Below are positions 13,109 to 32,749 of a stretch of DNA of 36,528 nucleotides, piece after piece. The stretch comes from an uncultured Bacilli bacterium (GTDB taxonomy: Bacteria > Bacillota_I > Bacilli_A > RF39 > UBA660). The position numbers were made by a program, and so were the translations under genes. Under the pieces are notes generated by a model. The model did not search any database, was not told the origin of the DNA, and saw only the letters and a program-made list of their open reading frames with translations. The stretch lies in NCBI GenBank assembly GCA_947591455.1, contig CANQDC010000006.1, forward strand, positions 1 through 36,528. The letters are read 5' to 3'. Within the stretch, counting starts at the first letter, position 1; every line of letters starts with the position of its first letter.

Positions 13109-13882
13109 CTATATATTTATTATTTTAACATTTATTCCGCTTATTTTAAAAATTTTATATACTTTTTCTAGCATTTCATCTGATACTTCGGTTAATTCTT
13201 CCGGTTCAATCCCTATCGATTGATATTTACTTAAAGCCAAATTATGAATTTTAAAAATTTCGACATTTTTATAATTATATTTTTTCAAGGCCTTAATCAA
13301 AAGTTCAATATTATTATCTTTTAAAGTATATTCATTACTAAAAGGTATTCGAAAAATATCAATAGTTATATTTTTATATTTTAAAAAATCTAAATTTTTA
13401 AAATATAATTCTATATCTCCATTTAGGATGTTTTTGCATTCATCCGCATCTAATATTTTCATATCAATAATCCATTCATTTACATAGTCAACTGCCTCTT
13501 GAATTAATTCTGTTTGAACTTGTAATGCCGTTTCAAAACATATATTTATCTTTTTTTCTTTTAATTTTTTTAATAAAGGAAGCATTGCTTTTATTTGAAG
13601 TAAGGGTTCTCCTCCTGAGAATGTTACTCCACCATTATCTAACGTATAATAATCATAATCTTTCATGATTTCATTAAATAATTCATCACAAGTATAATCT
13701 TTTCCAAAAATGCCTTTTTCTTTTGTATTCTGATTGTAATATTCAGTAAAATTATAACTTTTATTTTCTGGATTCGCACACCAAGGGCAATTTAAGTTGC
13801 AACCTTTTAAAAAAATTGTAGTACGAATCCCTGGGCCATCATGTAAACTAAATCTTTGAATATTAGATACTCTTACCTTCAT
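13109..13882 (-). CDS. glycyl-radical enzyme activase (radical SAM, PFL-AE-like)
   Basis: 257 aa; 'FSLHDGPGIRTTIFLKGCNLNCPWCANPENK' with CX3CX2C, 'GGVTFSGGEPLLQ'; overlaps the upstream GRE gene by 20 bp. Confidence 0.95.
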   Translation of the reverse strand: MKVRVSNIQRFSLHDGPGIRTTIFLKGCNLNCPWCANPENKSYNFTEYYNQNTKEKGIFGKDYTCDELFNEIMKDYDYYTLDNGGVTFSGGEPLLQIKAMLPLLKKLKEKKINICFETALQVQTELIQEAVDYVNEWIIDMKILDADECKNILNGDIELYFKNLDFLKYKNITIDIFRIPFSNEYTLKDNNIELLIKALKKYNYKNVEIFKIHNLALSKYQSIGIEPEELTEVSDEMLEKVYKIFKISGINVKIINI

Positions 13883-15893
13883 TTTTCAAAGCTCTTTCTA
13901 TTAATAAATTTTTATAATTTTCTGGTAAATCATTAAAATAAGCACTGAATCCCCAAACTCGCACAATTAAATTTTCATATTGTTTTGGATTTGCTTTTGC
14001 TTTTATCAATGTGTCACTACTAGTTACATTCATTTGCATTTGAAAAAATCCTAAAGAAATACTTAATATTAAAAAATTAACCATTTTATCAAAATTATTT
14101 TCAATAAATGAAGGAGTAATCATAAAATCTATTACGTTTCCATTAAATCGGCTACTTGAATAATCTAATTTTGAAGCAAACTGTATTAATTCTGTATAGG
14201 CTACGGAAGCTTTATCTGAAGAAATATGTACTCCAAATGGGTCATCATTTTTACGTCCATCAAATGAAGCAGCTACATGCATTGATTTTGTAATATAAGA
14301 TGGAGCACTTAAACCAAATTTAAATTTTCCACCTAATTTATTTACATGATTATTTAATATATCATTTACTTTTTTAGTTATTGTATTTGTTAATTCAATA
14401 ATTTCTTTTGAATCTGTACCATATCGTATAGGCTGTTTTTTTAAATCTATTATAATATTTTCGTTTTCAAAATAATTATTTTGACGTAATGTATTTATTT
14501 GCGATAATTGATAAGTTTTTTTATCAAATACAAAATGTTTAATATTATATAAACTATTTACCACATTACTTAATGAAACAGAAGTAAAACCGTAATGATT
14601 ATACTTTGCTCCTCCATAAGCAATATCTTTCGCATTTTTATTACAATTCTCAGTAAATAAGGATAATAATGGAGATTCTTCCCATTCAATGCTATTTATT
14701 TTTTCAATATATTCTAAAATATAATCTTGTAAAAATTGTATATATGTTTCTAAAAATTGTTCAAAAGTTTCTACATTATCTAGTTCTATACTATCTATCA
14801 TTTTCAAGAAAGGTTCCATGTAAACAATGGAATCAATATTATTTTGATCAAACGATTTCCCTGGTATAAATGGTTCCCAACAAGCTGAAGTAGCATAATT
14901 ATAAGCATCTTTTTTGTCATATCCATAGTCAATAAGTTTTGGAATAATGACATCATCATTCGAAAATAATGGACACCCTATTCCTGTTTGAATACATTTT
15001 AATGATACTTCCATTAAATCTTTCGGAATATTTTTAGCTACTCGCAATAATATTTTTGGATCAGGCAAAGATAAATCATGTAGAACTTCAATAAATAAAT
15101 ATGTAAGATCATTATAAAAATATTTTCCATTAGGTTCTAAACCACCAAGTATTATTATTTGTCCTGTATCTCCTAATAAAGAATTACTTTTAAACCAGAA
15201 ATTTTGATGTAATGTTTCTATAAAGTCTTTTATTAATTTTTTAGCTTTTTCAACTGTTAAATTTTTTTCTTTTATATCTTGCTTATAAAGTTTGTCTAAA
15301 ATTTTATCTAAACGTCCTAACCCATTTAAACATAATCCTGATTGCCATATTAATTGATTAAAAAATAAAATACGTTGTAATGCTTCTTCAAATGAAGTTG
15401 CTTCTTTGGTTTTTATATTTTGAAAATAATTAATCAATTTCTTTTTATCTTTACGCGTACTTTTTGTGATTTTATCACATATACGATTAATATATTCTTC
15501 TATTCCTAATATCAGTTGTTCCTGACTATCTTTAAATTTCCCTGAAGTGATTTTTAAATTGTCTTTTTTTAAATTTATTAAAGAGTTATGAATCACTTTT
15601 GAATAATCAATAGTCAAATTATCTATCATACGATTTTCACGAGGAACAATTTTAAACACATCTAAAGTATAAATAAAATGATTATTCGTATCGATATTTA
15701 TTTTGGCTTTGTTAAAAACTTTTCTAATTTGTTCTCCTTTTAATAATTTTTTACTTGGAGTATAAAAATTAAAAATAGATTGAATACTAAATATCAAAGT
15801 TTTCCATATATTTTTATATTTACGGTGAAATAAATAAATTAATCGAATTCGTGCAATATTTGTTTTCCCAATAATTTTTTTTATTGTTTCCAT
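13863..15893 (-). CDS. glycyl-radical enzyme, pyruvate formate-lyase/dehydratase superfamily, substrate unknown
   Basis: 676 aa; 'GGLEPNGKYFYNDLTYLFIEVLHDLSLPDPKILLRVAKN', 'GIGCPLFSNDDVIIPKLIDYGYDKKDAYNYATSACWEP' (C-x-E; Cys codon 14880-14882), C-terminal glycyl motif 'RVWGFSAYF' (Gly codon 13950-13952). Confidence 0.93.
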   Translation of the reverse strand: METIKKIIGKTNIARIRLIYLFHRKYKNIWKTLIFSIQSIFNFYTPSKKLLKGEQIRKVFNKAKINIDTNNHFIYTLDVFKIVPRENRMIDNLTIDYSKVIHNSLINLKKDNLKITSGKFKDSQEQLILGIEEYINRICDKITKSTRKDKKKLINYFQNIKTKEATSFEEALQRILFFNQLIWQSGLCLNGLGRLDKILDKLYKQDIKEKNLTVEKAKKLIKDFIETLHQNFWFKSNSLLGDTGQIIILGGLEPNGKYFYNDLTYLFIEVLHDLSLPDPKILLRVAKNIPKDLMEVSLKCIQTGIGCPLFSNDDVIIPKLIDYGYDKKDAYNYATSACWEPFIPGKSFDQNNIDSIVYMEPFLKMIDSIELDNVETFEQFLETYIQFLQDYILEYIEKINSIEWEESPLLSLFTENCNKNAKDIAYGGAKYNHYGFTSVSLSNVVNSLYNIKHFVFDKKTYQLSQINTLRQNNYFENENIIIDLKKQPIRYGTDSKEIIELTNTITKKVNDILNNHVNKLGGKFKFGLSAPSYITKSMHVAASFDGRKNDDPFGVHISSDKASVAYTELIQFASKLDYSSSRFNGNVIDFMITPSFIENNFDKMVNFLILSISLGFFQMQMNVTSSDTLIKAKANPKQYENLIVRVWGFSAYFNDLPENYKNLLIERALKNEGKSI

Positions 15894-15896
15894 AAA

Positions 15897-17345
15897 TTAA
15901 CCTCTTTTTCTTTTTATACCTACCAATATTTGCCTTAAAATATCTACAAAAAAACTTTCTTTTAATATGAATAACATCAAAAAATAAGTTAACATTCCAA
16001 TAAAAATTTCTATCATTGTATTTAATATACTCACTTTTAAATATGTAACAACATAACTTACAACTAATAACATAATTACTCCGCTAATTATATTTTTTAC
16101 TCCAAATTTAAGTATATCTCTAAATAAAAATTGATCTTTAAAAAAATGTAATTGATAGATAAGAATAACACTTTCTGCTGCTACTGAAGCTATTGCTGCA
16201 CCAGCACCTCCATATTTTGGAATTAAAATCATATTAAATAAAACATTTGTAAATGCTCCTATTATAACTGATACTGTAAAAATATTTTGTTTACCAGTCT
16301 GAACCAAATATTGAATACCAGTTATTCCATTTAATCCTATAGCTATTAAAATTGGAGTGGTAAAAATTAAAATATTGGTTACTCCATCAAAACCATCTCC
16401 ATAGAACCAAGGTACAAATTTAGAGGCGATTGCAATCAACCCTAAAGCTAACGGGATTCCTAAAAACCACACAAATTGAAAAGATTTTTTTAAACAATTT
16501 TTTACTTCGTCATAATTCTTTTCCATGTATGCTGCAGCAATTCGTGAATTCATGACAGTTTGTAAAGCACTTATTAAAACTAAAGCTGCTCTAACAACTT
16601 TCTGTGCTTGTTCATAAAATCCTACTTCTGCCATATTATTAGTTAATAATCCTATCATTGTTTTATCTAAAACAGTATAAATTTGAATTGCAATTTGTGG
16701 TAAAAATAATAAAATTGTTGGTTTTATATGCTTTTTTAATTGTAAATCCTTTATAGGTATTTTTATTATATATTTCGGTAAATATAAAAATAAAGATAAA
16801 TTTCCTATTAATTCTGAACCAACTGAAATTGCAAAATACTTCCATAAATCAGTAGGATTTTTGACTAAGACAAAAATTAATATTAAACTCATCACTTTTA
16901 CAATCAAGTTACGAATAACTGTTTTATCAAATTCTTCTAAACCTTGAAAAAACCAACTAATATCAAACATTGAAGCAACTAACTGTATAATTAATATTCT
17001 ATAATAAAATGCATAATTTCCTTCTCTACCGTAAATAAAATAAAATAAACCTATAGTTACTAAAAGTGATATAAAACGCAATAACAGAAGTTCAAGAAAA
17101 GATTTGCTAAATTCTTTTTTATTATTTTGATGATATGCAATTTCTCGTTGACCATACATTGCAATACCAAGAGACCCAAATAAAACAAAATAAGTTACAA
17201 TTGACATCGTATATCCAAAAATGCCAATAGGTTCTGCTTGTAAAACTCTTGACAAATATGGAGTGGTAATTAATGGTAACAAAATAGTTAACATTTGGTA
17301 AATCAAATTAAATAGATAATTTTTAGCTATACTTTTCTTTTTCAT
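15897..17345 (-). CDS. Wzx-type oligosaccharide flippase (MATE/MOP superfamily)
   Basis: 482 aa; 'NYLFNLIYQMLTILLPLITTPYLSRVLQAEPIGIFGYTMSIVTYFVLFGSLGIAMYGQREIAYHQ' typical of RfbX/Wzx. Confidence 0.93.
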   Translation of the reverse strand: MKKKSIAKNYLFNLIYQMLTILLPLITTPYLSRVLQAEPIGIFGYTMSIVTYFVLFGSLGIAMYGQREIAYHQNNKKEFSKSFLELLLLRFISLLVTIGLFYFIYGREGNYAFYYRILIIQLVASMFDISWFFQGLEEFDKTVIRNLIVKVMSLILIFVLVKNPTDLWKYFAISVGSELIGNLSLFLYLPKYIIKIPIKDLQLKKHIKPTILLFLPQIAIQIYTVLDKTMIGLLTNNMAEVGFYEQAQKVVRAALVLISALQTVMNSRIAAAYMEKNYDEVKNCLKKSFQFVWFLGIPLALGLIAIASKFVPWFYGDGFDGVTNILIFTTPILIAIGLNGITGIQYLVQTGKQNIFTVSVIIGAFTNVLFNMILIPKYGGAGAAIASVAAESVILIYQLHFFKDQFLFRDILKFGVKNIISGVIMLLVVSYVVTYLKVSILNTMIEIFIGMLTYFLMLFILKESFFVDILRQILVGIKRKRG

Positions 17346-18468: not shown

Positions 18469-20559
18469 TTAATTACAACTTAATCTATAAATGTTAGAAT
18501 AATCATAATTATATATTTCATCAAATGTTAAGTCTTTATCATTATAAATACTTAAATCTAAACCATTAGTAACTAAATATTTTGCTTTTATATCACATAA
18601 ATCATATTTATTAATATTTAATATTAAAGCATCTTCATATAATAATTCAACATTTGTTGTCTCATCAATAATATTAACATTTATATGAGCATATCGATTA
18701 TATATATTATCATATTTTCTTTCTTTATCTAAAATATCCCAAAGTTCATAATTAGGATAATTATTTGTTGAATTTATAACTTTTGCTCCATTTGCAAGTA
18801 TATAGTTTTGTAAATAATAAACAGTCCCTATCGTCAGCCATTTTCCATCATTATCATGATTTACTATTTCTCGAACTTTTTCTGCAAAAGGCTTATCATA
18901 TATAACACTTAATCCTTTCGATACTGGATGAATAGTCATACCTACTATACAAGAAAGTAAAAACAATAAACAAACTAAATACTTGTCAGCTTTTATATAA
19001 TTAATTAAAAATAAAGTCATTATTGGTATAAAAATTAACATAGAAATAACAAACATTTTACTTGTAAAATACGAAGTATATAAATTATTTACAATTTTGA
19101 AGCTAATCATAAAAAGAATAACACTTAATAAACAAGATATTAAAATTTTCTTTATAGAAACAGTATTAATTGCATAATTTGCTAATATATATATTAAAAG
19201 AACAACATTTAGAAAGCCAACTGTAACTTGCGTTCTTATAGGCGTAGACATATACAACAATGTTATTTTTGCAAAAAAATCATTTATTTCAATAAAATTC
19301 CATAAATTTAGAAATAAAGTAAACACAACTAATAAAATTAATAATAAATCTTTCTTTTTATTTTTAATATTGGATATTACAGTACAAATTGCAACTAATA
19401 ACGGAAGTGGATACAATGAAATAAACTGAGACGATTCACTAGCATTAGGATGATTTACAAACGGTGTAAAAATTGAAGTAATATAATTAAATAAATGTTG
19501 CCAATCAGAGCCACCAGTAGAAAAACGTGCTCCTGGATAAACAGTATTATTTACCAAATTAAGAACATCAGTTGAAGTTATAAAAGATGGAGCTATTATT
19601 ATTGCACAAATTAACAAAACATTCAAAATAAGTATTAAAAAATTTTTAATATTTATTTCGTTTTTATGAGTTGCTATTTGCCATATAACTAATGCCAAGA
19701 AAAAATATCCATAAGAAATCTGCCATGCAGGATAAAGACACATAATATAGCAACTACCAAAAAAACCAATTAAAAAACTATATAAAACCTTTTTCTTGAA
19801 AATTTTATTTTCAAGAAATTTATTAAACATTAAAATAGCTAAACATCCATACGTAATAATATTATAACTTTCCCACCATTGGGTTGCAGGTGCAAATGTA
19901 ATCATTACGGCACCTAGTAATGAATACTTTTTATTTTGCTTTGTCATTAACATAAAAAGTTCAAATGTTGCAAAAAACATTGCAAAATATCCTAAATACC
20001 AGTATGCAGAAAAAGCATGATTTACATCTAAAAATAAAAATGGAATTAATGTAGGATTAGATAAAATTGTTATTGACTTTACAGGTAATTTTGGATAAAG
20101 TGTTACAATATTATTAGTTCCCCTTATTGTTTTATTGATTGTTGATAAATTATTAATTTTTGATTTTTGTGATAATATGAAAGGAGTAGTAACTGCCCAT
20201 TCATCCCCGCGAATCAATTGAGGTTTAAAAAGAAATGGATTACTATTTTTTACATAAATATTCGGCTGTACTACTTCATTATACATAGAAATAGATGATC
20301 CATGATAACCATTTATTACACAATAAGAAAAAATAATTAAGCCAAGAATATATCTTTTCCGATAAATAAAATCCCATAATTTATTTCGATCAATATAAAT
20401 ATTCAGTCTACAAAATAAAAATATAGTCGCAAAAATAATATATCTATCAATAGAAATGCCTTCATTAGGAAACACAAATTTTTCAATAAGCAAAGGTAAA
20501 ATTAAACATCCTAAGAATGAAAAATATTTAATTATTTTATTATTTAAAAATTTTTTCAT
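18469..20559 (-). CDS. large polytopic membrane protein, putative GT-C-like glycosyltransferase
   Basis: 696 aa, many TM segments; motif 'LIRGDEWAVTTPFILSQ'; adjacent to the DPM1-like GT2 and DUF2304 protein. Confidence 0.6.
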   Translation of the reverse strand: MKKFLNNKIIKYFSFLGCLILPLLIEKFVFPNEGISIDRYIIFATIFLFCRLNIYIDRNKLWDFIYRKRYILGLIIFSYCVINGYHGSSISMYNEVVQPNIYVKNSNPFLFKPQLIRGDEWAVTTPFILSQKSKINNLSTINKTIRGTNNIVTLYPKLPVKSITILSNPTLIPFLFLDVNHAFSAYWYLGYFAMFFATFELFMLMTKQNKKYSLLGAVMITFAPATQWWESYNIITYGCLAILMFNKFLENKIFKKKVLYSFLIGFFGSCYIMCLYPAWQISYGYFFLALVIWQIATHKNEINIKNFLILILNVLLICAIIIAPSFITSTDVLNLVNNTVYPGARFSTGGSDWQHLFNYITSIFTPFVNHPNASESSQFISLYPLPLLVAICTVISNIKNKKKDLLLILLVVFTLFLNLWNFIEINDFFAKITLLYMSTPIRTQVTVGFLNVVLLIYILANYAINTVSIKKILISCLLSVILFMISFKIVNNLYTSYFTSKMFVISMLIFIPIMTLFLINYIKADKYLVCLLFLLSCIVGMTIHPVSKGLSVIYDKPFAEKVREIVNHDNDGKWLTIGTVYYLQNYILANGAKVINSTNNYPNYELWDILDKERKYDNIYNRYAHINVNIIDETTNVELLYEDALILNINKYDLCDIKAKYLVTNGLDLSIYNDKDLTFDEIYNYDYSNIYRLSCN

Positions 20560-23614: not shown

Positions 23615-24406
23615 TTATACCTCCTCAGCAAAACCCCTTTGTAATCTATTAAATATTATAAAACCAATCAGTAATAAAAAAATACAGCCAAATAGTGTGA
23701 TTAAAAGTGATTTTAATTCTGGAATTGTTTGATAAAATAGTATATTACGATAACTATTTATAATACTAGACATTGGATTTAAACGTATCAGCCAAGCTAT
23801 TTTAGTATTTTCAAACATATTAGCTGAATAAATTATTGGAGTGGCATAAAACACCATATTTATTAAAAAACTTATTATATATTCAGCATCACGAACATAA
23901 ATTTCAATGGAACTAGTAATTAATATTATTCCTAATTGAAATAGAAATTGTACTAAAATAATTAATGGCAAAAACAAAATATATTTGCTAAATCCTATGC
24001 CACTGAAAATTAAAAAAATAAAAATAATTATACAGGAAATCAAAAAATTAATTAATCCGCTTATATTAATAGAAATGGGTAATATTTCTCTTGGAAAATA
24101 AACTTTTTTTATAATACCTGCATTAGATAAAATACAAGTAGTTCCTTGTATTATTGTATTTACAAAATAAGTCCAAGGTAATATTCCGATAATAACAAAA
24201 GTAACATAATGTTGCTCTGTATTTTTTAAAATAAAAGGAAAAACTATAGCATAAATTAGCGCAGTTAATAATGGATTAATAAAAGACCATAAAATTCCTA
24301 AAAATGAAGCTTTATATTTACCTCTAATATCTTTTTTGACATTGCTTTTTAATAATAAACGATAATTGTAAAGGTTATTTATTAAATTTTTCATAATTAT
24401 CCACAC
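23615..24406 (-). CDS. ABC-2 type polysaccharide export permease (Wzm/TagG-like)
   Basis: 263 aa; 'LLKSNVKKDIRGKYKASFLGILWSFINPLLTALIYAIVFPFI'. Confidence 0.94.
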   Translation of the reverse strand: MWIIMKNLINNLYNYRLLLKSNVKKDIRGKYKASFLGILWSFINPLLTALIYAIVFPFILKNTEQHYVTFVIIGILPWTYFVNTIIQGTTCILSNAGIIKKVYFPREILPISINISGLINFLISCIIIFIFLIFSGIGFSKYILFLPLIILVQFLFQLGIILITSSIEIYVRDAEYIISFLINMVFYATPIIYSANMFENTKIAWLIRLNPMSSIINSYRNILFYQTIPELKSLLITLFGCIFLLLIGFIIFNRLQRGFAEEV

Positions 24407-25137
24407 ACCTTTTTATATTCTTCCATAACTTCTCTGGTGTTACCATCTTTTTCAATCTTACCATTATTTATCCAAATTGTTCTATTACATAATTTTTTTA
24501 TAGAATCTAAACTGTGACTTACAATAACAATAGTTTTTTTATTATTTTTAAGCTCTTCTAATTTTTCAAAACATTTATCTTGAAAATGTTGATCTCCTAC
24601 CGCTAAAATCTCGTCTATCAATAAAATATCGGCATCTACATTAATAGCAATAGAAAAAGCCAACCGCATATATTGTCCACTTGAATAAGTTCTTACAGGA
24701 CTGTCAATTAATTCACCTAATTCTGAAAAATCAATAATACTTTGTAATCTTTGATTGATTGCTTTCTCTGTTAAGCCAAAAATTGATGCATTAAAATAAA
24801 TATTTTCTCTTCCTGTAAAATCCGGATGAAATCCAGCACCTAATTCAAGTAAAGATGTTAATTTTCCATAGGTTTTTATAGTTCCTTTCGTAGGATAAAT
24901 AATTTTGGTCATCAACTTTAAAAGAGTAGATTTGCCACTTCCATTAACTCCTATTAACGCAACTGTTTCACCTTTACTAATTTCTAAGGAAATATTATTC
25001 AATATTATTCTTTCCTCTGCTTTTTTTTTATTCCAAAAAACCAATCTTTCTTTTAATGTTGAAGGTTTATCATAATATAATTTGTAAACTTTAGTAACAT
25101 CTTGAATATCTATTGCTTTTGAATTATTTGCTTTCAT
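24397..25137 (-). CDS. ABC polysaccharide export ATPase (Wzt/TagH-like, short form)
   Basis: 246 aa; 'ALIGVNGSGKSTLLKLM', 'TSLLELGAGFHPDFTGRENIY', 'YSSGQYMRLAFSIAINVDADILLIDEILAVGD'; no C-terminal carbohydrate-binding extension. Confidence 0.95.
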   Translation of the reverse strand: MKANNSKAIDIQDVTKVYKLYYDKPSTLKERLVFWNKKKAEERIILNNISLEISKGETVALIGVNGSGKSTLLKLMTKIIYPTKGTIKTYGKLTSLLELGAGFHPDFTGRENIYFNASIFGLTEKAINQRLQSIIDFSELGELIDSPVRTYSSGQYMRLAFSIAINVDADILLIDEILAVGDQHFQDKCFEKLEELKNNKKTIVIVSHSLDSIKKLCNRTIWINNGKIEKDGNTREVMEEYKKVCG

Positions 25138-25194: not shown

Positions 25195-27087
25195 CTATTT
25201 CTTACGATGTAGTATATTATCTATTTTAGTTTTCAATTTCCAAGTTTTAGAATTTAATATTTCATTGTAGTTATTAACTATATTATTAAGGTCTGCTTTT
25301 GATTTATCTAAATTTAATCTTAAATCTATAATATTTCTTTTTAAATCTCCTAACTCACTTTCTAAAACTTTAATATATTCATTTTGTTTGCTATTGTTTT
25401 TTTCTAAATCTTCATATTGTCCCCAAATAATATTGATTTCTTCTTCTGAATTTTCATATCTAGTATATTTATTAAATATTTGACTGCCAATATCATTTTT
25501 TACTATTTTATTTATAATTTTTTCTTCAAGCTTATCAAATAATTCTATATAATCTCTCATTTTAATACATAAATTATCTAAAATATAATTATATATTTTT
25601 TCTATATATACATTATATTCCATATTAGATAAATTATAAAAAATAAACATTCTTATTGCACGGTAAACTATATATTCTAATGGTACAAATTTTTCTAACC
25701 ATTCTTGATCAAAAGCAATATAATTACCGGATTTATTAACTAAAATATTTTGGAAAATTAAGTCTATAAATCCATCTTTTATAAAATAAAGGTTATCCTT
25801 GATTTCATTAGAAACTTCAATATTATACTTTTCAAAAATAGTATTTACATCCTCGTTTATTTTTTCTTTGCAAAAATGTTTCTTTAAATATAACACATAA
25901 TTATTTATGGTTTCTTTTAATAAAACTAAATTGCCCTTTTTGCATAAATCAATTAAATAATCAGAAAGACTTTGGAAATCAGTGTAATTTGTATAAATTC
26001 CAATTTCATCTTTATAAATTTCTAATGTGTTAATTCCATACTTATTTAATAATTTATCATACTCTAATATATTTTCTATATGTTCTTTTCCTTGTTCAAA
26101 TTTAGCTTTTTTATAAAATTTCCCATTTTTTTCAAATGTTTCAATTGCATATTTTTTATTTCTAGAATCATTATATTTAGCAAATAATACTTCTTTATCT
26201 GTTTTTATCAAAGATAATTCAATAAAATATGAATTAGCAAAAAAATCCAATACATTATTCATCAAAATATCCTTAAATATTTTCTTTTCATCCCCAAACA
26301 TTTTAAAAGTTCGCCAATAATATGGCGTATAACATATATTTTTTTCATTTTGCACAAATTCATCAGTTAGCACAATTTCTGGAAATTTATAGTCGGGTAA
26401 AAGATAATAAAAATTATAATTTAAATTTAATTTATTAAATAAATATTCTAAATCATTTTTACTAAATGTTTTAATTTTACTATTATTTTTATAATTATTA
26501 ATTCCATCAAAAATTCTATTTGTATGATCCTCACATGCCCCACACCAATACTTTAGACCAAAACGATTTTCAATCGCAATTAATATTTTTCCGTTATCTC
26601 TAAGATTTTTTTTGAGTTGATTTATAAAATCTTCATAAGGATTTTCAGAATCAATATACAAGGCACTGTATTCTAATACTCCATTTAACAAAATATAATC
26701 ATATTTTTCTTTTAAAACAATATCCTTAAAATTACCCACAATAATTTCTAAATTTTTAGCATTTTTATTTCTTTCTAAAATAGCGGTGGCTCTTTTTTTA
26801 GATAATTCAATACTTGTTACTTTTTTACATTTTTGACACAATTCGCTCGTAATTGCGCCCATACCTCCGCCAACTTCTAATATACTTGCATTTTTTTTGA
26901 AAGGATACCAACGAATTACATTTTTTCTTCTATCAGCTAAATGATAAAAGACAGGCCATGAAGAATCTTCTTCAAAAGCTTTTTCATAATTATCAGGATA
27001 CTTTTTTATAAATTCAATTATTTTATCTTCAATATCACCATCACTATATTCATCTTTTCCTTTATAAAACTTTAAATTTAATTTCAT
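25195..27087 (-). CDS. class I SAM methyltransferase with kinase-like middle domain and C-terminal coiled coil (WbdD-like architecture)
   Basis: 630 aa; 'ASILEVGGGMGAITSELCQKCKKVTSIELSKKRA'; 'DGFIDLIFQNILVNKSGNYIAFDQEWL' resembles the catalytic D-x4-N and metal-binding D of APH/choline-kinase-like folds; heptad-rich tail 'LESELGDLKRNIIDLRLNLDKSKADLNNIVNNYNEIL'. Confidence 0.75.
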   Translation of the reverse strand: MKLNLKFYKGKDEYSDGDIEDKIIEFIKKYPDNYEKAFEEDSSWPVFYHLADRRKNVIRWYPFKKNASILEVGGGMGAITSELCQKCKKVTSIELSKKRATAILERNKNAKNLEIIVGNFKDIVLKEKYDYILLNGVLEYSALYIDSENPYEDFINQLKKNLRDNGKILIAIENRFGLKYWCGACEDHTNRIFDGINNYKNNSKIKTFSKNDLEYLFNKLNLNYNFYYLLPDYKFPEIVLTDEFVQNEKNICYTPYYWRTFKMFGDEKKIFKDILMNNVLDFFANSYFIELSLIKTDKEVLFAKYNDSRNKKYAIETFEKNGKFYKKAKFEQGKEHIENILEYDKLLNKYGINTLEIYKDEIGIYTNYTDFQSLSDYLIDLCKKGNLVLLKETINNYVLYLKKHFCKEKINEDVNTIFEKYNIEVSNEIKDNLYFIKDGFIDLIFQNILVNKSGNYIAFDQEWLEKFVPLEYIVYRAIRMFIFYNLSNMEYNVYIEKIYNYILDNLCIKMRDYIELFDKLEEKIINKIVKNDIGSQIFNKYTRYENSEEEINIIWGQYEDLEKNNSKQNEYIKVLESELGDLKRNIIDLRLNLDKSKADLNNIVNNYNEILNSKTWKLKTKIDNILHRKK

Positions 27088-28397: not shown

Positions 28398-29552
28398 TCA
28401 CCATATTTTTTTATATTGCTCTACTATATAATTCCAAGTATATTCACTTTTAATTCTATCTTTTGCCATTTTTTCATATTTTTTTATTGTTTTTTCATCA
28501 AATTGATCAGCCATTTCAATGATTCTTTTTAAATCATTTTCTTTTTTACTAAAATATAAACTGGATAATTTACCAACTTCCACATTATATATCGCATTAT
28601 ATAAAATATTTATTTTAGTATTCGCAAGAGCTTCTAAAAGACTAGGATTCGTTCCTCCAGCACTATGTCCATGAATATAAGCATAAGCATTCTGTCTTAA
28701 ATAAATGATTGACTCTTTTTCATAAACACTCCCAATAAATTTAATACGTTTATCTTTTAAAAAATTGGTTTTCACTTTTAAATCATGGTAAAACTTATTT
28801 TCTTCCACATTCGATACAATGACTAAATCTCTATTCGTATTTGATTTCATAAATTCTTCAATAATAAGTTCATAATTATTTTCTGGTACAAATCTTCCTA
28901 CGATTAAATAATAATTATTTTCTTGTATTTTAAATTTTTTAAAAAGTTCCTCTACATGCTTATTTTTTAAAACTTTTTTTTGCAAATAAGCACCATAAGC
29001 TATAAAATAAGTTTTCTTTTTATATTTTTCATATTTGGTATCTACATAGTCTTTGATCGCTCTAGAATCACAAATAATTCCATTACTATATTTTACCATA
29101 AATCTTTCACTAATTTTAAAACATTGTTTAATCCACCATGACCATTTTTCTCTTTTCCATTCTAATCCATCGGGATTTAAATAGATTGGTATTTTTCTTT
29201 TCCGTAAAGGATGTACTAAAAATGGATAAAGTGGACCCATACGACATCCTAAAATATAAATGGTTACGTTTTCTAACTTTTGCTTTTTTATATATTTATT
29301 TATTTTAAATAAAGCTTTTATTGCATAAATAAACATAGTAGCAAAACCCATATTCGGAGAATATATTTGTAAACATGAAACCTTGTCTTTTTCAATAATT
29401 TGATTTTTTTCTTGTTTCTTCTTTGTTAATTCTGGCACATGAAATTGAACATTTTGATCTTGATAATTCTGAATTAAATTTGTTACAAATGTTTCCCATC
29501 CTCCATAATTTGCTTTGTATCCACGTGCTCCAATGATAATTATATTTTTCAT
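28398..29552 (-). CDS. GT4 family glycosyltransferase with DUF1972-type N-terminus (rhamnosyltransferase-like)
   Basis: 384 aa; 'IIIIGARGYKANYGGWETFVTNLIQNY', 'YLIVGRFVPENNYELIIEEF'. Confidence 0.9.
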   Translation of the reverse strand: MKNIIIIGARGYKANYGGWETFVTNLIQNYQDQNVQFHVPELTKKKQEKNQIIEKDKVSCLQIYSPNMGFATMFIYAIKALFKINKYIKKQKLENVTIYILGCRMGPLYPFLVHPLRKRKIPIYLNPDGLEWKREKWSWWIKQCFKISERFMVKYSNGIICDSRAIKDYVDTKYEKYKKKTYFIAYGAYLQKKVLKNKHVEELFKKFKIQENNYYLIVGRFVPENNYELIIEEFMKSNTNRDLVIVSNVEENKFYHDLKVKTNFLKDKRIKFIGSVYEKESIIYLRQNAYAYIHGHSAGGTNPSLLEALANTKINILYNAIYNVEVGKLSSLYFSKKENDLKRIIEMADQFDEKTIKKYEKMAKDRIKSEYTWNYIVEQYKKIW

Positions 29553-30469: not shown

Positions 30470-32749
30470 TTATTTTTTAAAAACTTTTAAAAGAATAGAT
30501 TTCGTATTTTCATAGTTATATTCATTACTTTTTTCTTTAGCAGCAGCAATTAATTTATTTTTTTCTTTCTTTTTCATATTCAGTTCAGAAATTATTTTTT
30601 CTGCTAATTGTTTATAATCTGTTGGATCAAAAGTTATACTATTTACTTGATCGATTAAATAATCACTTGGACCATATTTATTGCTGCCAATGATTAAAGT
30701 TTCACAAGCCATTGCTTCTAATCCTGTAAGTCCTAAAGATTCACTTTTTCTTCTTGTTGGATAGATATATGCTTCTAAGGAATTATAAACATCTACTAAT
30801 TCTGATTGAGAAACAAGTGGTCTTCTTTCTACATAGGAAGATACTTTATACTTTTTAATCATTTCATCTAATCTATCTTCTTCGCTGCCATTTCCGACAA
30901 TTAAGAATTTTATCTTTTTTAACTTCTCCGCTTTTTTTAATTCGTTGATTGCCAATATGAGTGTATCATATCCTTTATCTTTTTCAATCCGCGCTATAAA
31001 ACCAAAATATTTTATATCTTCTTTTAATCCTATCTTTTGCTTAGCTATCTTCATATTTTCTTTTTTAAATATTTGGACATTTACTCCACCCGATGGATAA
31101 ACAACAACTTTATTTTTTGCAATTTTGAAATTTTTAATTACAATATTTTTAAAATAAGTAGAAGGAACAATGATACTATCCGCACTTTTTATAAATATGT
31201 TACTTAATTTTAAATATCTTTCATCTACTTTGGTATCCCCTACTAGATCATTTCCATGTCCATTTAAAACTAATTGAGTATTTCTAGATAAAATATAAGG
31301 TAAATAAACTCCCACAGCGGAATGAGAAATAAAATGAACATATATATAGTCATAATTCTCAAACGTTGCTTTTATAAACGATACACCACATAATTTTATA
31401 TAAGCAATTAGTTTTTTTATTTTATTTGTCGTTTTTGTCATAACCACTAAATCTATACTATATCCTGCTTCTTTTAATAATTGGTAAGTATTCAATACAA
31501 AAGAACCATAGGAAGGATTTTTACTGCTTGGATACATATTTGAAACGAATAGAATGTTTTTCTTCTCTTTTCCATGGTCGTTTTTTGATATTAAAAATAC
31601 TAAAGCTAGATAAGTTGTCACCATAGGACTTAGTAATACATGTCCAGAAAAACAAGAGATTACTACCATTAAAATAAAGCTTAATTTATATACAGGTTTT
31701 AACTTTGTTTGCTTTAGGGAATAGACAAAAAAGAATAAATAAAAAGCGAATCCAATTATTCCGATACTATAAAAAATATCAAAAATATCTATTTCAATAT
31801 TTTTCTTTGCCAGTATTTTTTCTTGTCCTAACCCTAACATTTTTTCTAAAGGAGTACTTTTTACATAGTCTTGATTTATATTTTCTAAAAAAGTAAGGCG
31901 ATTACTATAGACAATATGATCTATATTTTCTAACGTAAATAGCTCACTTATATGATCAATTTGATAATAATTTAACGAAGTTTCTACATTATGATATAAA
32001 TCCATTTTTGGTATATAAACAATACCTGCTAATAAAATAGCTCCAATAAATAGTAAAACTTTTAATTGATTTTGAAAAAAATATTTTTTGATATTGTCTT
32101 TTCGGCGCACTATAAAATAGAAAATAATGATCCCTACACTTGCATAGTACGTCTTTGTTCCTAATAAATAAGTGGTCATTACTAATAAGAAAATAAAAAT
32201 GATTTGCAATAAATAGCTATTACTTTCTAATAAATATAAAATTACTATGGGAAGTAATGTAATAAAAATGTTAATTAATTCATTTCCAATATAAAAATAA
32301 GAAAAATACATGGATTTATTTGGATATATTTCATTCATATTATGCCCCAGTCCAAAACAAAAAGGCACTAAATACAAAAGTAAGTAAAAAAGAAAAATAT
32401 ACATAATTGTTTTTTTGGTTATTTTGCTATTTTCGTAAATTGAGAAAAAGAGAATTAAGAGTGGCAGATAAAATATTTTTACCATATTCGTTAATTCAAC
32501 CATTACATTATGAGGATATAGGATTAAATAAAGAAAATAGATAATAAAATAAAAGCCCATGAATAGAAAGATTTTTTTATTTGGATAATACTTTACTAAA
32601 TAAAGAATAACGATTATTAAAAAAAGGCCCTTTATCCAAATTCCGAAACTATAATTCATATTTTCCCATGATAAAATTCCTGTTAAGAAATCAATAAAAG
32701 GAAATAAAAGGAATATATATGGAAGTATAAAATCTAATTTTTTTTTCAT
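30470..32749 (-). CDS. O-antigen ligase/polymerase-like membrane domain fused to a C-terminal GT4 glycosyltransferase
   Basis: 759 aa; N-terminal half of about 395 aa polytopic (Wzy/WaaL-like), then 'NILFVSNMYPSSKNPSYGSFVLNTYQLLKEAGYSIDLV' and 'YFGFIARIEKDKGYDTLILAINEL...SESLGLTGLEAMACETLIIGSN'. Confidence 0.82.
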   Translation of the reverse strand: MKKKLDFILPYIFLLFPFIDFLTGILSWENMNYSFGIWIKGLFLIIVILYLVKYYPNKKIFLFMGFYFIIYFLYLILYPHNVMVELTNMVKIFYLPLLILFFSIYENSKITKKTIMYIFLFYLLLYLVPFCFGLGHNMNEIYPNKSMYFSYFYIGNELINIFITLLPIVILYLLESNSYLLQIIFIFLLVMTTYLLGTKTYYASVGIIIFYFIVRRKDNIKKYFFQNQLKVLLFIGAILLAGIVYIPKMDLYHNVETSLNYYQIDHISELFTLENIDHIVYSNRLTFLENINQDYVKSTPLEKMLGLGQEKILAKKNIEIDIFDIFYSIGIIGFAFYLFFFVYSLKQTKLKPVYKLSFILMVVISCFSGHVLLSPMVTTYLALVFLISKNDHGKEKKNILFVSNMYPSSKNPSYGSFVLNTYQLLKEAGYSIDLVVMTKTTNKIKKLIAYIKLCGVSFIKATFENYDYIYVHFISHSAVGVYLPYILSRNTQLVLNGHGNDLVGDTKVDERYLKLSNIFIKSADSIIVPSTYFKNIVIKNFKIAKNKVVVYPSGGVNVQIFKKENMKIAKQKIGLKEDIKYFGFIARIEKDKGYDTLILAINELKKAEKLKKIKFLIVGNGSEEDRLDEMIKKYKVSSYVERRPLVSQSELVDVYNSLEAYIYPTRRKSESLGLTGLEAMACETLIIGSNKYGPSDYLIDQVNSITFDPTDYKQLAEKIISELNMKKKEKNKLIAAAKEKSNEYNYENTKSILLKVFKK

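Follow-up and report, generated by a model that had tools for sequence, protein, structure and literature searches.

Does a protein that combines methyltransferase and kinase-like domains, coded by a gene of a Bacilli bacterium next to an ABC exporter devoid of a cap-reading domain, act as a polysaccharide chain terminator? The question is raised by a 36,528-nucleotide stretch of DNA with a GC content of 25.5% (hereafter called the window). The gene of interest (25195..27087, minus strand, stop codon included) codes for a 630-residue protein; the ORF calls give it an ATG start, preceded by the ribosome-binding site AAAGGAG. We confirmed that it lies 57 bp upstream of the exporter genes, as stated in the original prediction, and found that all of them are on the minus strand, a detail absent from that prediction. 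Profile searches identified an ATPase of the Wzt/TagH/RgpD type (246 residues, 24397..25137, minus strand) and a permease of the Wzm/RgpC type (263 residues, 23615..24406, minus strand), whose genes overlap by 10 bp. In published terminated O-antigen systems, a carbohydrate-binding module (CBM) on the exporter ATPase (Wzt) recognises the cap (PMC11231755). The short ATPase of the window was correctly predicted to lack this C-terminal domain, as it has no Wzt_C match. The contrast with the described terminated O-antigen systems, all of which have a CBM, means that the putative terminator could have another role.

The N-terminal third of the protein matches the Pfam Methyltransf_11 profile (E 1.4e-8, residues 70-170). 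Together with homology, this match defines a class I SAM methyltransferase module (residues 1-262, 26302..27087, minus strand) and bears out the claim of such an enzyme. It is followed by a kinase-like module (residues 263-525, 25513..26301, minus strand) and by a coiled coil, and the proposed order of these three segments beside an ABC exporter is thus supported. The kinase-like signature is present in the middle region as it had been read, in the form D442-x4-N447-x12-D460-Q461-E462-W463 (25699..25764, minus strand), with LIFQ between D442 and N447, and QEW after D460. The spacing of D442, N447 and D460 is that of a kinase catalytic loop and a metal-binding Asp. In an alignment of 28 kinase modules, whose divergence extends down to ~15% identity, every sequence has D442, N447, E462, W463 and a conserved T residue, and 27 have D460. 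The full motif, D-x4-N-x(10-15)-D-x-E-W, is found in 29 of the 893 ORFs of the collected loci. Because all 29 are members of the terminator family, the match is not a chance occurrence.

A profile search of the middle region against kinase families, suggested along with the original prediction, gave no Pfam or PDB match: with queries of 1, 6, 18 and 28 sequences, nothing significant was obtained from Pfam, NCBIfam or the PDB. An isolated split-kinase relative has a sub-threshold match to TCAD9 (E 0.0028). Two AlphaFold runs with two-sequence alignments (the window protein and its L008 relative, see below) yielded models with pLDDT values of 37 and 41, in which, at this low confidence, the order of strands and helices is kinase-like. 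A Foldseek search with the low-confidence domain model returned the choline kinase LicA first (E 0.029), and most of the first 50 matches are kinases, which may weakly corroborate a kinase fold. Because of the low confidence of the models, the fold assignment of the middle domain rests on homology, namely with O7-type terminator kinases and not with the WbdD kinase.

ORF6(O7) of K. pneumoniae adds phosphate and methyl-phosphate in vitro to O-3 of the terminal Rha, which the D441A substitution abolishes (PMC11231755). Its previously unannotated kinase was recognised only through a model resembling AmiN, and according to the authors it differs from the WbdD kinase in both sequence and structure (PMC11231755). 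The O7-type orthologs published so far belong to alpha- and gammaproteobacteria and to cyanobacteria. Our plasmid searches yielded two gammaproteobacterial relatives, one in P. asturiensis and the other in C. braakii. At the sensitivity used, E. coli genomes gave no DNA match to the Citrobacter gene. Our comparison with ORF6(O7) runs via these two relatives, together with the architecture and residue numbers published for ORF6(O7). In P. asturiensis, the protein (1457 residues) harbours Tyr28, Tyr66, Gly91, Gly93, Glu112 and Tyr158 at the exact published ORF6(O7) numbers, with D443 in the place of ORF6(O7) D441, and, like ORF6, it has two GT2 domains at its C-terminal end. In the window protein, D442 corresponds to D441 of ORF6(O7), and Y48, G73, G75, E94 and Y140 are equivalent to its SAM-site residues Y66, G91, G93, E112 and Y158, respectively. 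In hhalign, a Bacillota profile headed by the window protein aligns end to end with the gammaproteobacterial relatives over 437 columns (E 2.5e-75), and the kinase module alone matches those of the gammaproteobacterial O7-type relatives with an E value of 3.6e-11 and a probability of 97.2%. We assign the window protein to the O7 type because of this homology over the whole profile and over the kinase module, the ORF6 residue numbers and the conserved catalytic residues. It is likely that it represents a Gram-positive-side member of the ORF6-type chain terminators, with a methyl-phosphate cap, a ruler and export without a CBM.

The heptad-rich C-terminal tail was confirmed by prediction as a coiled coil, at residues 548-611 (25255..25446, minus strand), with high-scoring segments reaching residue 619. 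Residues 548-619 score above the 99.5th percentile of globular segments, and only 2 of 2000 shuffled tails reach that score; WbdD, used as the positive control, gave a coiled coil at 472-599. Approximately 20 residues separate the kinase module from the coiled coil, and this spacing leaves too little room for the Ig-like module of O7 ORF6, which we therefore rejected for the window protein. The protein ends in a basic tail, NSKTWKLKTKIDNILHRKK (residues 612-630, 25198..25254, minus strand), for which a function in contacting the membrane or a partner is putative. This end resembles the SRSWRMTK motif of WbdD (WbdD residue 592).

We initially found four relatives among 145 genomes of the taxonomic family of the window's genome and one in a MAG from the Oscillospiraceae (L008). 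Extending the profile searches to the order, class and phylum, and to the order and phylum of the L008 genome, yielded more relatives. Their distribution is patchy: they occur in 8 of the 385 genomes sampled from the order, and the samples around L008 gave 7 of 345 and 14 of 399 genomes. Scans of viral contigs for further relatives found none. The architectures vary: the window protein is stand-alone, others are fused to RgpF (L007/L025), and the L008 protein is fused to two GT2 domains, which is the layout of K. pneumoniae O7. In L076, L077, L079, L080 and L047, the methyltransferase and the kinase are coded by separate, adjacent ORFs. Some split versions are fused to glycosyltransferases (L077, L047), and the split kinase of L080 carries a canonical-looking motif, DLHPNN...IDYEW. 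Three proteins of 753-792 residues (L087, L088 and L089) match the kinase module and are devoid of the D-N-D-x-E-W motif, and that of L087 has a cytidylyltransferase domain (PF01467) at its C-terminal end; they possibly constitute a related family with a different activity.

In seven of the nine loci of the window's taxonomic family, and in most other loci, the exporter genes are part of the terminator's cluster; no exporter was found near the terminator gene in the other two loci of that family. Apart from the adjoining exporter, the window's genome has no clear ABC2-type exporter. A search for Wzt_C domains anywhere in the nine terminator-bearing genomes of the family found none (eight are 71-95% complete, and the window's is 67% complete), and we thus rejected the hypothesis of a Wzt_C-type cap reader encoded elsewhere in the window's genome, at that 67% completeness. 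Because Wzt_C is absent in 9/9 genomes, capping seems to be uncoupled in this family from the known cap-reading step. Outside it, the ATPase usually has a Wzt_C domain, as in 13 further loci, which include one ATPase split into two ORFs and one weak match, and in both gammaproteobacterial loci. L042 and L085 have short ATPases without Wzt_C. A 361-residue ATPase encoded beside the L043 terminator (L043:11011-12096) has a tail of ~125 residues that does not match the Wzt_C profile and possibly represents a different kind of cap reader. A phylogenetic tree places the ATPases of the window's family in a clade separate from those bearing Wzt_C (support 99/98 and 98/96), with some uncertainty in the deep branching order because of long branches. 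The terminator therefore pairs with a different exporter lineage in this family, and the separate clades contradict a recent loss of the CBM inside one exporter lineage, within the uncertainty of the deep order. Of note, the CBM-less exporter of K. pneumoniae O1/O2 can export the capped O3a antigen (PMC11231755).

In this cluster, the glycan genes are on the minus strand. One codes for a Cps2T-like beta-1,4-rhamnosyltransferase (28398..29552, minus strand; 467.9 bits for a curated cut-off of 500), suggesting a rhamnose-containing polymer. A Glycos_transf_4 protein identified by profile match (PF00953; 33158..34240, minus strand) is a TagO/WecA-like candidate for the initiation of the lipid-linked chain. 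The cluster also encodes several GT2/GT4 enzymes and a UDP-galactopyranose mutase. Because a Wzx-type flippase (15897-17345, minus strand) and a GT4 enzyme with a fused O-antigen-ligase-like membrane domain (30470-32749, minus strand) share the cluster with the ABC exporter, there are two possible export routes, which may build one composite wall glycan. Between the flippase and the mutase genes are those for a glycyl radical enzyme and its radical-SAM activase (13109-15893, minus strand). The former is a 676-residue protein with PF02901 and PF01228 domains and the motifs SACWEP and RVWGFSAYF, and we found no counterpart of either in the related clusters L022-L030 and L039-L047. A large membrane protein with DUF7657 and DUF7654 domains is also encoded in the cluster (18469-20559, minus strand). 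In the window's assembly and ten other genomes, we found LytR-CpsA-Psr (LCP) ligases in 11/11 and LpxC in 0/11; these are therefore bacteria without LPS. Rather than LPS, the cluster most likely makes a wall polymer that contains rhamnose.

By analogy with the O7 and O9a systems, from which we derive the cap chemistry, the terminal sugar and the ruler role, we propose that the kinase domain would phosphorylate the sugar at the non-reducing end of an envelope polymer that is lipid-linked and ABC-exported. This sugar would most likely be rhamnose, with galactofuranose as another possibility. The methyltransferase domain would then methylate the terminal phosphate, and the resulting methyl-phosphate cap would stop chain extension. 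The coiled coil of ~70 residues and the basic end might keep the catalytic domains a fixed distance away from the membrane-bound polymerase, such that only chains long enough would be capped. The capped chain would leave via the CBM-less Wzm/Wzt exporter, the cap setting its length without being read through the usual C-terminal module. More tentatively, capping and export might be decoupled in this lineage, a reading that we regard as plausible but somewhat short of an even chance, with the cap serving as a pure length stop signal or being read by something else, such as the terminator itself docking on the exporter, or an LCP ligase after export.

The protein was initially taken to be a WbdD-like terminator. 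The likeness holds for the domain order and as a functional analogy, but not for membership in the WbdD family: in profile-profile comparisons the kinase module aligns with that of WbdD with a probability of 0.05%, and the whole profile has only 73 columns in common with WbdD, which correspond to the generic SAM-binding fold. The suggested comparison of both catalytic domains with those of WbdD thus indicated an unrelated kinase and a methyltransferase sharing no more than that fold. The WbdD kinase matches both APH and Pkinase in Pfam, and none of 18 terminator-family members does. For all these reasons, it is very improbable that the protein is a true orthologue of WbdD of the O9a/O3 type with a eukaryotic-like kinase domain, even though the domain order and the presumed product are alike and both proteins end in a basic S-x-[ST]-W stretch after the coiled coil. 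The lack of kinase profile matches might also suggest that the middle domain lacks activity or has a structural role and that the protein terminates chains by methylation only, like E. coli O8 WbdD or Geobacillus WsaE, and methyl-only termination is indeed known for a Gram-positive S-layer glycan (PMC2943079). However, a dead domain would hardly have retained the D/N/D-x-E-W residues nearly invariant in 28 sequences down to ~15% identity, and the residue homologous to D442, D441, is essential for the kinase activity of ORF6(O7) (PMC11231755), which makes this explanation improbable.

A further possibility is that the enzyme adds phosphate or methyl-phosphate along the polymer or on its side chains, or modifies another envelope molecule. 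An exporter without a cap reader would fit such non-terminal decoration, as would the two family loci without an exporter found near the gene, and streptococcal rhamnans bear non-terminal phosphate decorations. Homology to a demonstrated terminator, ORF6(O7), nevertheless argues against this, as do the coiled-coil ending, the fusions to polymerising GT2 (L008) or RgpF (L007/L025) modules and the pairing of terminator relatives elsewhere with Wzt_C exporters, and we consider decoration unlikely.

An O7-type chain terminator thus remains our preferred reading. Like ORF6(O7)-N of K. pneumoniae O7, the window protein comprises a methyltransferase, a kinase without sequence similarity to that of WbdD and a coiled coil, and it is encoded in an ABC-exporter cluster. 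Unlike ORF6(O7), it has no C-terminal GT2 polymerase modules, which are separate genes here and fused in some relatives, and it is found in a setting with LCP, no LpxC and a CBM-less ATPase. Relative to the WbdD systems of E. coli O9a and K. pneumoniae O3, its coiled coil is about half as long (~70 versus ~130 residues), the exporter has no CBM and the kinase is unrelated by sequence. WsaE of Geobacillus stearothermophilus, which caps an ABC-exported rhamnan in a Gram-positive bacterium, similarly starts with a methyltransferase, but it is described as a three-domain protein that adds a 2-O-methyl group, has no kinase and is fused to rhamnosyltransferases (PMC2943079). The S-layer glycan of C. 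difficile Ox247, also ABC-exported in a Gram-positive bacterium, carries a phosphate on its terminal rhamnose (PMC6254364). It thereby sets a precedent in Gram-positive bacteria for a terminal rhamnose modified with phosphate, although this cap is described as probably a cyclic phosphate and not the methyl-phosphate proposed here (PMC6254364). The cluster also resembles the streptococcal and lactococcal Rgp rhamnan pathway in its Cps2T-like rhamnosyltransferase, its CBM-less exporter of TagH/RgpD size and its LCP ligases, but no methyltransferase-kinase terminator is described for Rgp clusters in the literature searched.

We found no report of this terminator type in Bacillota in that literature, which excludes most subscription journals. 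What is new here is an O7-type terminator family in genomes with LCP ligases and no LpxC, and the absence of the cap-reader domain Wzt_C in the window's family, by search of nine terminator-bearing genomes. These observations extend the range of the O7-type kinase to bacteria without LPS. Length control of ABC-exported wall polysaccharides is poorly understood in Gram-positive bacteria, and a capping family that occurs in Bacillota with and without Wzt_C offers a natural comparison for the role of the cap in export, length and attachment. If capping and export are indeed decoupled, this would represent a mode of length control as yet undescribed for Gram-positive wall polysaccharides.
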